32,543 nt of DNA from Candidatus Kaiserbacteria bacterium (GTDB lineage: Bacteria; Patescibacteriota; Minisyncoccia; Phycocordibacterales; UBA2100): assembly GCA_028286585.1 (NCBI GenBank), contig JAQBRI010000007.1, positions 82,479 to 115,021 of the forward strand, read 5' to 3'. The notes beneath the pieces were generated by a model. It was not told where the DNA came from, did no database searches, and saw nothing but the letters and a program-made list of their open reading frames with translations. Made by a program: the position numbers and the translations under genes. Below, piece by piece: positions 9,204 through 26,333 of this stretch (within the stretch, counting starts at the first letter, position 1; each line of letters begins with the position of its first letter).

Positions 9204-10937
9204 ATGTACATTCCTGATGACACGTTAAAAAAATTCCTACTCGATGGTTCGATCGTTTCACTTAAGGATATTGAAATTGCCGAACGAGATGCAACCTCAC
9301 ATCATCGGCCGTTGGGCGACGTGCTCGTTGCAAACAATACGATTACCGTAGACGAACTCCGCCGCACTATGGCGACCGCGCTCGGTATCCCGTTTGTTTC
9401 ACTCAAGGGAATGAATATTCCGCTTCCTGTTTTGTCCTTGGTGCCCGAACCGATTGCGCGACGCAACAATATCATTGCATACAAACAAGAGGGCAATGAA
9501 CTTGAGATAGCGATGCTTGATGTTGATGATCTGACCTCGATCGATTTTATAAAGAAAAAAACACAGCTCAAGGTGCTTGCCCGGCTTACCGATACCGACT
9601 CATTGAAAGGTGCGCTCAAGCTTTATCAGCAGTCATTAAATGATAACTTGGGCGACGTGCTTCGCCGCGAATCACAGACGGTTACAAAGACAGACGGCAC
9701 GCAAGACCCGAGTAGTTCCGATTCCAATGGTGAAAGTGCCATTCGCATTGTCGACACCTTGCTGCGACACGCGAGTGCACAAAACGCATCCGATATTCAC
9801 ATTGAGCCCTATGAAACGGCACTTATCATTCGATATCGTATCGATGGAATTTTGCACGACGCGATGGAGCTGCCAAAGAGCACTGCAGCTGCGATAACCG
9901 CGCGCATCAAGGTATTGTCGGCGCTTAAGCTTGATGAAAAGCGCCTGCCGCAAGACGGTCGTTTTTCTGTTACGAACAGTTCCGAAAAAGTATCGTTCCG
10001 TGTTTCAATATTGCCCACATACTATGGCGAAAAGATCGTTATGCGTTTGCTGCGCGATTCGGTCTCGGGCTTTACTCTCGAATCGATCGGTTTTCATGGT
10101 GCGGCACTCGACCGTATGCATGACGCCATGAAAAAGACGACCGGACTTATTCTGACGACTGGCCCAACTGGCGCCGGTAAGTCGACAACGCTTTATACTA
10201 TTCTCGATATTTTGAATACGCCTCGCGTTAATATTTCTACGATCGAAGACCCGATCGAATATCAGATGCCTCGTATTAATCAGACGCAGGTACGTCCTGA
10301 CATCGGATTTACATTCTCAACTGGGCTTCGAAGTCTTGTTCGTCAAGATCCGGACATTGTTATGGTTGGTGAAATTCGCGATAAGGAAACAATCACACTC
10401 GCAGTTAATGCCGCATTGACTGGTCACCTTGTGCTTTCGACCTTGCACACCAATTCGGCAGCAGGTGCTATTGCGCGTATGCTCGAAATGGGCGTTGAAC
10501 CGTTTCTTCTTGTTTCAACCCTGCGCGTTATCATCGGCCAACGATTGGTGCGCAAACTTACACCAGAAAAACAGGAGTACACACTTTCTCGCGATGAGCA
10601 GGCGCAGCTTGAGCACATCAGTAATCCGCCAGTGGTTCTGAAAGCTCTCAAAGATGAAAAAATTGTTAATGCCGCTGCAACATGGAAAAACGTTCCTTTT
10701 TATCATGCTGGCGAAAGTATTGAGCATCCAACGGGTTATGCGAGTCGATTGGGTATTTATGAAGTGTTGCCAGTCTCAGCCAGCATCAAAGAGCTTATTA
10801 TGGGCAACAAGACCGGTGATGATATCGAAAAGCAGGCACGAGCAGAAGGCATGCTTACGATGAGTGAGGATGGAATATTTAAAGCCGCACAAGGAATTAC
10901 TTCTATTGAAGAAGTTATGCGTGTGATTACGGATTAA
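9204..10937 (+). CDS. pilB: Type IV pilus assembly ATPase PilB (GspE family)
   Basis: This cytoplasmic hexameric ATPase powers pilus extension. In the 577-residue protein an N-terminal MshEN-type domain (about 1-150) is followed by the N2 domain and the RecA-like core. Walker A is GPTGAGKSTT at 320-329, the Asp box is IEDPIEY at 347-353, Walker B is DIVMVGEIRD at 384-393 and the His box is TGHLVLSTLHTN at 406-417. The usual zinc-binding tetracysteine segment of PilB/GspE is absent. After RLVRKL the chain reads TPEKQEYTLSRDEQ instead of a CxxC pair, and the second half (FYHAGESIEHPTGYASRLGIYEVL) has no cysteine either. It heads the pilus cluster with pilC and pseudopilin genes, but two unrelated genes separate it from pilC. 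Confidence 0.95.
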   Translation: MYIPDDTLKKFLLDGSIVSLKDIEIAERDATSHHRPLGDVLVANNTITVDELRRTMATALGIPFVSLKGMNIPLPVLSLVPEPIARRNNIIAYKQEGNELEIAMLDVDDLTSIDFIKKKTQLKVLARLTDTDSLKGALKLYQQSLNDNLGDVLRRESQTVTKTDGTQDPSSSDSNGESAIRIVDTLLRHASAQNASDIHIEPYETALIIRYRIDGILHDAMELPKSTAAAITARIKVLSALKLDEKRLPQDGRFSVTNSSEKVSFRVSILPTYYGEKIVMRLLRDSVSGFTLESIGFHGAALDRMHDAMKKTTGLILTTGPTGAGKSTTLYTILDILNTPRVNISTIEDPIEYQMPRINQTQVRPDIGFTFSTGLRSLVRQDPDIVMVGEIRDKETITLAVNAALTGHLVLSTLHTNSAAGAIARMLEMGVEPFLLVSTLRVIIGQRLVRKLTPEKQEYTLSRDEQAQLEHISNPPVVLKALKDEKIVNAAATWKNVPFYHAGESIEHPTGYASRLGIYEVLPVSASIKELIMGNKTGDDIEKQARAEGMLTMSEDGIFKAAQGITSIEEVMRVITD

Positions 10938-11003
10938 GGTGTATACTTTTTCCCAGTTCAGAGTGAGTACGCACTAGTTGAAATGGCAATCGAGGAGATT
11001 GTG

Positions 11004-11438
11004 ATGAGCGCGCTTATAACTCTTTATGCTGCAGTGCAAACAACGGTGGCAGTCGCCGTTCTTCCCTTGGAGACACCGAAGATGTTTAGCTTCGACGGCG
11101 TGGACACACTTCGAACGACGGCACGAGAGATAGCGAGCGCATTGCATATTTCTGCAGGGAAATGCCGGGATCTGCAGAATAAACTCGATCAAGGTAAGAT
11201 TACTATTTGCGTCATTCCCTTGGTTGGAGAGCAGATAACCGTCAGCAATGTAGCAATTGGCCAGAAGGCTGAATTATGCACGCTCACCTATCGAATTCCG
11301 ATGGAAGGAAATCACTTTGGAATTGGAATTCGTTGCACAGACGATTCCTTTACCAAAGAGATGGAGGAGAGGAGTTTCATATCTGATCACGCACGCGGTC
11401 TCATGTCTCTGTTCAATATGTTGATCGTACGTAAATAA
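11004..11438 (+). CDS. Unrecognised protein in the pilB-pilC gap (cassette gene 1)
   Basis: I recognise no family in this 144-residue protein. The frame also opens at 10983, but the ATG at 11004 is chosen because an excellent Shine-Dalgarno (GAGGAG, 10992-10997) lies 6 bases before it. The protein begins MSALITLYAAVQTTVAVAVL, mildly hydrophobic, then continues as a soluble mixed alpha/beta chain with a probable helix at about 35-65 (TLRTTAREIASALHISAG...). The middle part EQITVSNVAIGQKAELCTLTYRI looks like beta strands. The gene has a TATACT hexamer near 10941, a leader of about 50 bases and its own strong terminator just downstream. With a Shine-Dalgarno it differs from the surrounding pilus genes. 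Function is unknown, and nothing links it to pili except position. Confidence 0.6.
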   Translation: MSALITLYAAVQTTVAVAVLPLETPKMFSFDGVDTLRTTAREIASALHISAGKCRDLQNKLDQGKITICVIPLVGEQITVSNVAIGQKAELCTLTYRIPMEGNHFGIGIRCTDDSFTKEMEERSFISDHARGLMSLFNMLIVRK

Positions 11439-11453
11439 ATCGAATGTTCTCTC

Positions 11454-11484
11454 AAACCCGGCGTCCGCGCCGGGTTTTGTTTTT
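11454..11484 (+). terminator. Terminator of cassette gene 1
   Basis: A perfect 10-bp GC-rich stem, AAACCCGGCG (11454-11463) with CGCCGGGTTT (11468-11477), has a 4-base loop and is followed by TGTTTTT. It starts 15 bases after the stop codon. Confidence 0.9.
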
Positions 11485-11506
11485 AACTGTTAATAGCAAT
11501 AATTGA
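11485..11506 (+). repeat. 22-bp direct repeat, left copy
   Basis: AACTGTTAATAGC followed by AATAATTGA is identical at 12389-12410. The flanking bases differ on both sides, so the match is exactly 22 bases. It lies immediately after the T-run of the terminator at 11454-11484. Its last four bases (TTGA) form part of the -35 of the next gene. Confidence 0.9.
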
Positions 11507-11541
11507 CTCGCTGTACAGACGTGATACAAAGCACGTGTCTG
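11503..11541 (+). promoter_or_regulatory. Promoter with overlapping dyad upstream of cassette gene 2
   Basis: TTGACT (11503-11508) and TACAAA (11525-11530) are 16 bases apart. The -10 sits inside an inverted repeat with outer arms ACAGAC (about 11515-11520) and GTCTGT and inner arms GTG and CAC. Such a dyad over a -10 could be a repressor site. A second inverted repeat, TAGCCA (11569-11574) with TGGCTA (11605-11610), falls in the leader. Confidence 0.45.
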
Positions 11542-11664
11542 TTCATTGGCATGCATTACAGATGGTTGTAGCCATATAATCCTAAAATTAGCTTTGGGGT
11601 GTTATGGCTATGACCATTCTGGGCATAGTTTTCCGTGAGTAGCGGTAAAATCAGGAGAACCGCC

Positions 11665-12276
11665 ATGAGCAATGGCAATATTCTTGAACGTCTTTGGAAG
11701 TTAGAAGCTACTGCGAATAAGCTTGTTCTTGACGGCAAGCGAACACCAGAAAGTCTTTGTTCTTTGTTACAAGAATTTAATGTCAATCGTCCTGAACCAC
11801 CGTGGCGCGAGGAACACGACATCATCTACTTTTCGGTTACCTCTGACGGCACGACGGGTGTGAAGTGGATCGCTCGACTCGAAAGCAAAGACTTCCACGT
11901 GAGTGACGAAGCGGTGCGTATGCTTTGTTCAACGGATTTTAAACCGACGAGCGGTGTGACGACCAAAGTTGCCGTTTTCAAGGGAAGTCTCTTTGGGGAC
12001 CGGAATCGAATCACGTCGAAGATTCGCAGCCGGGCAGAAGCATGCAGATTCGTCAAACCAAATACTGAATTGGCCTGCCTCATCCGTGAGAAGTTCTCGG
12101 ATGAGGAGATCGCAATGATGGGGTTGCGTCTCATCTCTGTCATGCATGAGCACTTCAAGATATACCTACCTAGCGGTCGTTACCAACTGTGTGTGGGCCA
12201 CCATAATTGGCTTAGTGTATGCGAGTCAGAGCGCGAATGGTATCGTAACGACGGTTTCGCATTTGCTGTTCCGTAA
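11665..12276 (+). CDS. Unrecognised protein bracketed by direct repeats (cassette gene 2)
   Basis: This 203-residue soluble protein matches no family I can name with confidence. The frame opens at 11635, but the ATG at 11665 has a Shine-Dalgarno (AGGAG, 11653-11657) 7 bases upstream and is preferred. The N-terminal 35 residues are helical and charged (ILERLWKLEATANKLV...). The middle carries strands around IIYFSVTSDGTTGVKWIARL. The C-terminus MGLRLISVMHEHFKIYLPSG...WYRNDGFAFAVP, with an ending GFAFAVP, loosely resembles short hypothetical proteins I associate with Parcubacteria; that recollection is not verifiable here. The gene has its own promoter, a long leader with two inverted repeats and a strong terminator. 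The unit is flanked by an exact 22-bp direct repeat, which suggests insertion between pilB and pilC. Confidence 0.6.
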   Translation: MSNGNILERLWKLEATANKLVLDGKRTPESLCSLLQEFNVNRPEPPWREEHDIIYFSVTSDGTTGVKWIARLESKDFHVSDEAVRMLCSTDFKPTSGVTTKVAVFKGSLFGDRNRITSKIRSRAEACRFVKPNTELACLIREKFSDEEIAMMGLRLISVMHEHFKIYLPSGRYQLCVGHHNWLSVCESEREWYRNDGFAFAVP

Positions 12277-12341
12277 ATCAGTTCTTAATGGTAAAACGTT
12301 GTAGTCTGATAGGAACTTTGATTCCTCGGATTTACTTTTGA

Positions 12342-12380
12342 AACCTCGCTTCGATTTTTGTCGGAGCGAGGTTAATTTTT
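12342..12380 (+). terminator. Terminator of cassette gene 2
   Basis: AACCTCGCT (12342-12350) pairs with AGCGAGGTT (12365-12373). The stem continues inward by a U-G and three Watson-Crick pairs, for 13 bp in all, with a 6-base loop. AATTTTT follows. Confidence 0.85.
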
Positions 12381-12388
12381 TAATATAC

Positions 12389-12410
12389 AACTGTTAATAG
12401 CAATAATTGA
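12389..12410 (+). repeat. 22-bp direct repeat, right copy
   Basis: This is an exact copy of 11485-11506, 904 bases downstream, and lies just after the terminator of cassette gene 2 and 31 bases before pilC. Both copies contain the short palindrome CAATAATTG. Confidence 0.9.
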
Positions 12411-12426
12411 TATGTGATTCGCACGC

Positions 12427-12432
12427 TATACT
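12427..12432 (+). promoter_or_regulatory. pilC -10 element
   Basis: TATACT ends 9 bases before the pilC ATG. TTGATA, at the end of the right direct repeat, is only 14 bases upstream, too close for a standard -35. Confidence 0.4.
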
Positions 12433-12441
12433 GTCTAGTGA

Positions 12442-13653
12442 ATGGCAAAATTTACATACATAGCAAAAAAAGGCGACAGCGAAACATATCGAGGTACTGC
12501 CGAAGCACGCGATCGGTTTGAGTTGTATCAAATAGTTCGCCGTGAAGGTGGGAGTGTTGTATCGGTAACAGAACAAGGCAAAGCGGTCGCATTTTCATTT
12601 GACCGCATGTTCGGCCGCATCAAAGAATACGAAAAAATTCTTTTTGCTCGTAATCTTAGCGCTATGCTCTCCGCCGGACTTAACCTCCCTCGCGCACTTG
12701 CAGTTCTTGCGCGTCAAACATCAAACAAAAAACTCGGTGAAGTGTTGGGTGAGATTGACTCAGCGTTGCGTAAGGGTGAGCCATTTAACGTTGCTATATC
12801 TCATTTTCCAAAAGTATTTCCAAGTCTCTTTGTTTCTATGATTCGCGCAGGCGAGGAAAGTGGTGAATTGTCCGGCGCTCTAGCCACCGTTGCCGAACAA
12901 ACCGAGCGCATGTATGACCTTAAGCGAAAGGTGCGAAGTGCAATGATTTATCCCTGCATCGTACTTGTTGCGATTGTGGGCATCGGTATTCTCATGATGA
13001 TTATTGTCGTGCCAACGCTCGCCGAGACGTTTAAGGCAGCGCACGCGACATTGCCGGGTGCCACCCGCGCGGTGATTGCGGTGAGTGATGCGCTTGCACA
13101 CAATACGATTCAAACATTAGGAAGTATGTTTGGAAGTGTCGCACTTGTAATCTACGGTTTTCGTACCAAGAAGGGAGCCGTTGTGTTGGACTGGATCGCA
13201 ATCCACATGCCGCTCATTAGCGGACTGACCAAAGAAATCAATGCAGCACGTACTGCGCGCACCATGGCATCCCTGGTGGGAGCAGGTGTTGGTGTTATTC
13301 AGTCTCTCGAAATCACCAAAGAAGTCGTTCAAAATTCTTTTTATAAAGATGTCATTCAGGATGCAATTGTGCAGGTAAACGCAGGAAAGCCACTATCTGT
13401 TGGATTTGCGTCACACTCTGATTTATATCCGCCATTTGTCTCCGAAATGATGGCAGTGGGAGAAGAGACAGGCGCAACCACCGATATGTTAAAACGACTC
13501 GCACTCTATTATGAGGATCAGGTGGATCGTCAAACCAAGGATATGTCGACGATCATTGAACCATTTCTCATGCTTTTTATTGGTGCGGCGGTTGGTTTCT
13601 TTGCCGTTGCAATGATCATGCCTATTTACCAGCTGACGGCGAGCGCAGGCTAG
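12442..13653 (+). CDS. pilC: Type IV pilus inner-membrane platform protein PilC (GspF family)
   Basis: PilC is the polytopic membrane protein that couples the PilB motor to pilin insertion. The 403-residue protein has the family's duplicated T2SSF domain. The first copy is about residues 55-180 and includes FARNLSAMLSAGLNLPRALAVLA and FPSLFVSMIRAGEESGELSGAL. The second is about 255-390 and includes ARTARTMASLVGAGVGVIQSLEI and YPPFVSEMMAVGEETGATTDML. Membrane segments lie at about 170-192, 210-235 and 375-395. The N-terminal KFTYIAKKGDSETYRGTAEA is also typical. Its stop is 2 bases before the next gene, so translation is probably coupled with the pseudopilin genes. The length is normal. Confidence 0.95.
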   Translation: MAKFTYIAKKGDSETYRGTAEARDRFELYQIVRREGGSVVSVTEQGKAVAFSFDRMFGRIKEYEKILFARNLSAMLSAGLNLPRALAVLARQTSNKKLGEVLGEIDSALRKGEPFNVAISHFPKVFPSLFVSMIRAGEESGELSGALATVAEQTERMYDLKRKVRSAMIYPCIVLVAIVGIGILMMIIVVPTLAETFKAAHATLPGATRAVIAVSDALAHNTIQTLGSMFGSVALVIYGFRTKKGAVVLDWIAIHMPLISGLTKEINAARTARTMASLVGAGVGVIQSLEITKEVVQNSFYKDVIQDAIVQVNAGKPLSVGFASHSDLYPPFVSEMMAVGEETGATTDMLKRLALYYEDQVDRQTKDMSTIIEPFLMLFIGAAVGFFAVAMIMPIYQLTASAG

Positions 13654-26225: not shown

Positions 26226-26333
26226 GTTCTTTTCGACATTGTTTTTAAAAGCACGCATATTTGCCTACTGGCAAATTGCTCCTCTCGCGCCGCCGCGCTG
26301 CGAGAGGCTTTTAAAAACAATGTCTCAAAGAAC
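26226..26333. repeat. 108-bp nested palindrome (three-way junction)
   Basis: Outer arms GACATTGTTTTTAAAAGC (26235-26252) and the exact complement (26307-26324) are extended, past a 2-base mismatch, by GTTCTTT (26226-26232) with AAAGAAC (26327-26333). Inside are two further hairpins. One is ATTTGCC (26259-26265) with GGCAAAT (26270-26276), extended by GCA/TGC across a one-base bulge. The other is CTCTCGC (26282-26288) with GCGAGAG (26300-26306). Nearly every base is paired in the fold. It fills the divergent gap between sod and the gene at 26383. It could be a small structured RNA, a MITE/REP-like element or a protein-binding cruciform. Confidence 0.85.

Follow-up and report, generated by a model that had tools for sequence, protein, structure and literature searches.

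An exact 22-bp direct repeat brackets a single transcription unit between pilB and pilC in the window (the whole 32,543-nucleotide stretch of DNA analysed). The repeat is real and is not explained by chance, and the gene between its copies is very probably a homologue of the variable proteins (VPs) of diversity-generating retroelements (DGRs). We favour the reading that the two copies are the scar of an insertion or duplication of this orphan VP transcription unit, at a probability of about 0.6. A previously unexplained repeat is thereby linked to a known diversification system.

An exact repeat beyond chance

The sequence AACTGTTAATAGCAATAATTGA occurs twice, identical at every base and 904 bp apart from start to start (Table 1). 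The bases flanking the two copies are unrelated, as the earlier note on this DNA had described, and identity ends sharply on both sides. That note had also proposed searching the whole genome for the 22-mer. Even with up to three mismatches allowed, neither the window nor the rest of the 885-kb genome yielded a further copy; the many promoter copies that the note had named as refuting its reading were not seen, and a promoter or UP-element motif repeated genome-wide was rejected on this count. The 20-mer core of the repeat was absent from 40 relatives (up to two mismatches) and had no match in viral contigs. Among genome contigs it matched two unrelated genomes, a Bacteroidetes and a Nitratireductor MAG, where we estimate that about one match would be expected by chance.

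A repeat census and simulations covered 285 of the 885 kb of the genome. In 248 third-order Markov simulations of these 285 kb, no exact repeat within 5 kb was longer than 20 nt, and the longest was usually 15–16 nt. The 22-mer is the longest pair of such spacing in the real sequence, where the only other comparable pairs were a microsatellite and a 20-mer with copies spaced by 173 bp. Since simulated sequence never exceeded 20 nt, and the genome holds no further copies, a chance origin was rejected.

Anatomy of the bracketed unit

Table 1. Features of the pilB-pilC region, in window positions.
Feature	Position	Strand	Basis or remark
pilB	9204–10937	+	Pfam T2SSE and MshEN
orf151, directly after pilB, second cargo gene of the gap	10983–11438	+	no family match
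Intrinsic-terminator-like hairpin and T-run directly before left repeat	11454–11484	+	sequence scan
Left 22-bp repeat copy	11485–11506	+	final TTGA opens the -35 of the VP promoter; placed by comparison with homologous units
VP promoter	11503–11530	+	TTGACT 11503–11508, 16 nt, TACAAA 11525–11530; sequence and homologue comparison
Conserved leader hairpin	11558–11620	+	model R1, 53.3 bits
VP gene, probable orphan homologue of DGR variable proteins	11665–12276	+	203 aa; homology, no RT or template repeat in genome
Intrinsic-terminator-like hairpin and T-run after VP gene	12342–12383	+	sequence scan
Right 22-bp repeat copy	12389–12410	+	between VP terminator and pilC -10
pilC -10, TATACT	12427–12432	+	conserved shortly before pilC start across genus
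pilC	12442–13653	+	Pfam T2SSF

The 904-bp interval contains one promoter, leader, SD, gene and terminator, in agreement with the earlier note. We refine the start of the gene, which is most likely the ATG at 11665, preceded by an SD (AGGAG, 11653–11657), rather than that of a longer GTG open reading frame at 11635. Two further claims of the note also held: the left copy directly follows another terminator, and its TTGA supplies bases 1–4 of the -35 element of the bracketed gene, where homologous units have theirs. A strict consensus scan did not flag this promoter; it is placed relative to GTTC and the leader hairpin just as in homologues.

The bracketed gene and its link to DGRs

The 203-aa VP had no match in Pfam, NCBIfam or PHROG. 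Its homologues are patchily distributed, occurring in 58 of 397 genomes and 47 of 179 genera of the order at 35–57% identity, with several at 49–57%. Apart from the genome of the window, G207 and G374 are the only sampled members of the genus to carry one. Carriage of the gene by phages or plasmids was considered and rejected, as no homologues were found there.

At ten of the homologues, a template copy of the 3′ end of the gene lies about 450–500 bp downstream. Mismatches between gene and copy fall almost exclusively where the copy has A (8–16, compared to 0–1 elsewhere, over the best 90-nt stretch). An eleventh homologue with a template repeat (L045) shows the same adenine-directed pattern, with an offset. 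Five homologous loci contain RT genes, which show the motifs YADD and LGNLTSQ and match RVT_1 at 83–93 bits, and a bAvd-like protein in one locus (L040) scored slightly below its cut-off. The homologous loci with template repeats and RT genes are DGRs. A Patescibacteria-restricted DGR clade (clade 2), whose targets lack recognisable domains, has been described (Roux et al. 2021, PMC8144416). In addition, L045 has a VP gene that contains an in-frame TAG and is flanked on either side by a copy of one segment; these copies are 2.4 kb apart, and their translation resembles the N-terminus of the DGR RT.

The genome of the window, which is 94% complete, gave no match in an RVT_1 search. Nor did it contain a second copy of the 3′ end of the VP gene (12100–12276), near the gene or elsewhere. 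On the strength of these two results, the gene is probably an orphan in this genome, and an RT may yet lie in the unassembled part. Like the Patescibacterial DGR variable proteins (PMC8144416), the window VP belongs to a homologous family, is about 200 aa long and has no recognised domain, and its unit shares the promoter-leader-gene-terminator layout of DGR units with a template repeat and RT nearby. It differs from these variable proteins in that neither template repeat nor RT was detected in its genome and in that its C-terminal region fits the variable-region pattern of the family poorly. Target genes of DGRs thus also seem to occur alone, with their leader intact, in a genome without a detected retroelement.

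A single-sequence structure model of the VP, in which a C-type-lectin fold was sought, had a pLDDT of 39.7, and no relatives were found among solved structures. By analogy with other DGR targets, the C-terminal region would bind a ligand, its hypermutation presumably having been lost here.

A conserved leader hairpin

The leader is common to 24 of 31 homologues, including that in the window. In order, it comprises the promoter, GTTCTTTGATA, TTGCGA and a long hairpin, which is often followed by a second small hairpin, and then the SD. Across the 24 sequences, the 19 pairs of the long hairpin are canonical in 95.6% of cells, with two-sided changes in 13 pairs. Its covariation score was 0.43, compared to 0.17 when shuffled and at most 0.13 when slid. 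The hairpin model located another 80 loci, in which 95% of cells are paired and pair types are many; their alignment was fitted to the model and is thus biased towards it. The folding of the window leader gave a z-score of -5.6. We regard the hairpin as almost certainly a real RNA element.

The hairpin model matches 156 of the 397 genomes and 98 of the 179 genera of the order, and the hairpin stands in front of VP-like proteins of several unrelated classes (loci L103–L132 and L161–L240). Rfam 15 gave no match near the gathering score in the window or at ten homologous loci, only matches far below it, and a limited literature search found no paper on the hairpin. The hairpin may act in control of expression, or take part in mutagenic homing. 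It offers a way to locate DGR targets that are remote from an RT gene; a large survey states that targets of this kind would escape its detection (PMC8144416).

The pilB-pilC gap

The gap between pilB and pilC is an insertion hotspot of the genus. It spans from 6 bp to about 1.4 kb, with 13 gaps shorter than 100 bp, and carries unrelated cargo. Cargo named by sequence reading includes S23-type four-helix proteins (L008, L011, L013, L025, L033, L146 and L152), toxin-antitoxin-like pairs and others. The S23-like genes in seven gaps adjoin short near-palindromic repeats, for example GGAATACGGTATAC. In the window, the gap also holds orf151, which has no homologue in the 51 other genomes of the genus and belongs to no clear family.

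Throughout the genus, a pilC -10 element (TATACT or TATAAT) lies a few bases before the start codon (12427–12441 in the window, and the pilC loci of the genus), which suggests a leaderless pilC transcript. The upstream regions of pilC in the genus share this -10 and nothing resembling the 22-mer. At the level of the genus, the ancestral pilC promoter therefore did not include the right copy of the repeat.

The earlier note had suggested looking for strains with an empty site. The 22-mer was in no relative, and no relative with a single 22-mer and no gene was found among the 51 other genomes of the genus, in which PilC identity is at most 61% and none of which is near enough to reveal the ancestral site. 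Similarly, no donor of the unit was found.

Bracketing repeats at related units

At most homologous units such repeats are absent. In the first 30 homologues, the longest word shared upstream and downstream was 11 bp, and at 28 leader loci no bracketing repeat reached 12 bp. Across 104 leader units, a bracketing repeat of at least 15 bp was present at eight, or six when two leader-to-leader repeats of tandem units are left out. Random anchors had such a repeat in 0.63% of cases, so that about 0.65 units would be expected, compared to the six observed. As the anchors were placed anywhere rather than in intergenic sequence only, and the test was framed after some cases had been seen, we take this enrichment as a lead and not as proof.

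The repeats differ between these relatives, each unit having a sequence of its own. The best parallel is L162, a lone VP unit between non-VP genes bracketed by a repeat of about 53 bp with one mismatch, the first copy of which directly follows the terminator of the upstream gene. Two cases are weak (L201, 15 bp; L180, 19 bp in three copies), while at L186, L217 and L156 different VPs stand in tandem arrays whose terminator regions are nearly identical. The 22-bp repeat of L156 was rejected as an instance of the same phenomenon: its flanks are imperfectly repeated too, which marks it as a duplicated terminator in a tandem array.

Tandem leader-VP arrays were observed at L098, L156, L157, L186 and L217, where the VPs differ and the promoter, leader or terminator segments are nearly identical. 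The unit in the window resembles four of these (L098, L156, L186 and L217) in that near-identical promoter or terminator repeats bracket one-gene units of about 0.9–1 kb. In contrast, the neighbours in the arrays are further VP genes and their repeats extend imperfectly, whereas the window unit lies between orf151 and pilC and its repeats have sharp edges.

Origin of the repeat

Exact identity, sharp edges, and the location of each copy, with a terminator before it and the next promoter after it, fit a single event, either an insertion of the unit or its duplication with partial loss of the second copy. We infer that the unit was acquired by transfer, and infer likewise the order of events and the recombination route. 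A self-contained unit of promoter, leader hairpin, gene and terminator would have been acquired into the pilB-pilC gap. It would have entered, or been duplicated and then partly lost, by recombination at a short sequence with the preceding terminator on one side and the next promoter on the other. Of the possible routes, the likeliest are that a circular copy integrated or that a tandem array collapsed. Removing the unit and one repeat in silico keeps the terminator, the 22-mer and the pilC promoter intact. As the window includes genes for ComEC and for type IV pili, uptake of DNA is plausible.

The earlier note had proposed att sites or recombination between repeats, and these two parts fared differently. 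A discrete inserted unit that left a recombination or duplication scar fits the patchy distribution of the gene, the hotspot locus, the sharp edges of the repeat and the repeat-bracketed units in relatives. Against this scar, we count that neither an empty-site strain nor a donor was found, that most homologous units lack bracketing repeats, and that most of the bracketed relatives are tandem arrays with shared-terminator repeats, which may reflect a different process. The attL/attR part is poorly supported. The length and arrangement of the repeat are compatible with the att cores of a site-specific integrative element, its gene being carried or mobilised in trans, and such elements are likewise flanked by direct repeats. 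They differ from the window unit, which contains no integrase (the sole tyrosine recombinase of the genome is about 25 kb away), where a tRNA search for an att site found none, and which has no recurrent core: the 22-mer is missing from relatives and viral contigs, and each bracketed unit has a different repeat. We consider an att origin very unlikely.

A target-site duplication, from a transposition-like insertion or from repair of a staggered break, would also leave an exact, sharp-edged repeat around a discrete insert. It is an improbable origin here, because the unit has no inverted repeats at its ends and no transposase, and 22 bp is long for the target-site duplications of known transposons. 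We also think it unlikely that the repeat is no scar at all and is instead a regulatory element (UP element or operator) shared by the VP promoter and pilC and kept by selection or gene conversion. Each of the two copies is AT-rich, has TTGA at its 3′ end and is located a short distance upstream of a promoter, but a regulatory element fits poorly with a genome that has just the two copies at up to three mismatches, with pilC upstream regions that across the genus share a -10 and nothing resembling the 22-mer, with a right-copy TTGA only 14 nt from the pilC -10, which is not a normal -35 spacing, and with the abrupt end of identity on both sides. An assembly artefact, in which two contigs or strains were joined at a short shared word, might be suspected in a draft of 20 contigs, and the minimum word lengths that common assemblers use are not far from 22 bp. 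This we hold to be highly improbable: the locus lies inside a 115-kb contig, both junctions there give sensible regulatory anatomy, the left copy supplies a -35 where homologous units carry theirs, and the 285 kb surveyed hold no similar pair save the 20-mer pair and the microsatellite noted above.

Beyond the insertion or duplication scar favoured here, leader-VP units might form a cassette-like system in Patescibacteria, in which one-gene units that share a leader RNA move, duplicate and exchange via direct repeats at their ends. Both hypermutated genes and the static orphans that descend from them would then spread independently of the retroelement, and capture of the window unit as a cassette would be recent. 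We offer this tentatively, as a possible but rather doubtful extension. Were it true, such units would resemble integron gene cassettes in being one-gene units with flanking repeats at a hotspot; they differ in that each has its own promoter, with no conserved recombination site and no integrase nearby.

Separately from the 22-mer, two exact copies of a 32-bp terminator-like sequence, TCCTCTCGCGCCGCCGCGCTGCGAGAGGCTTT, lie 27 kb from each other, at 26280 in the window and at position 81529 of contig C7, outside the window.
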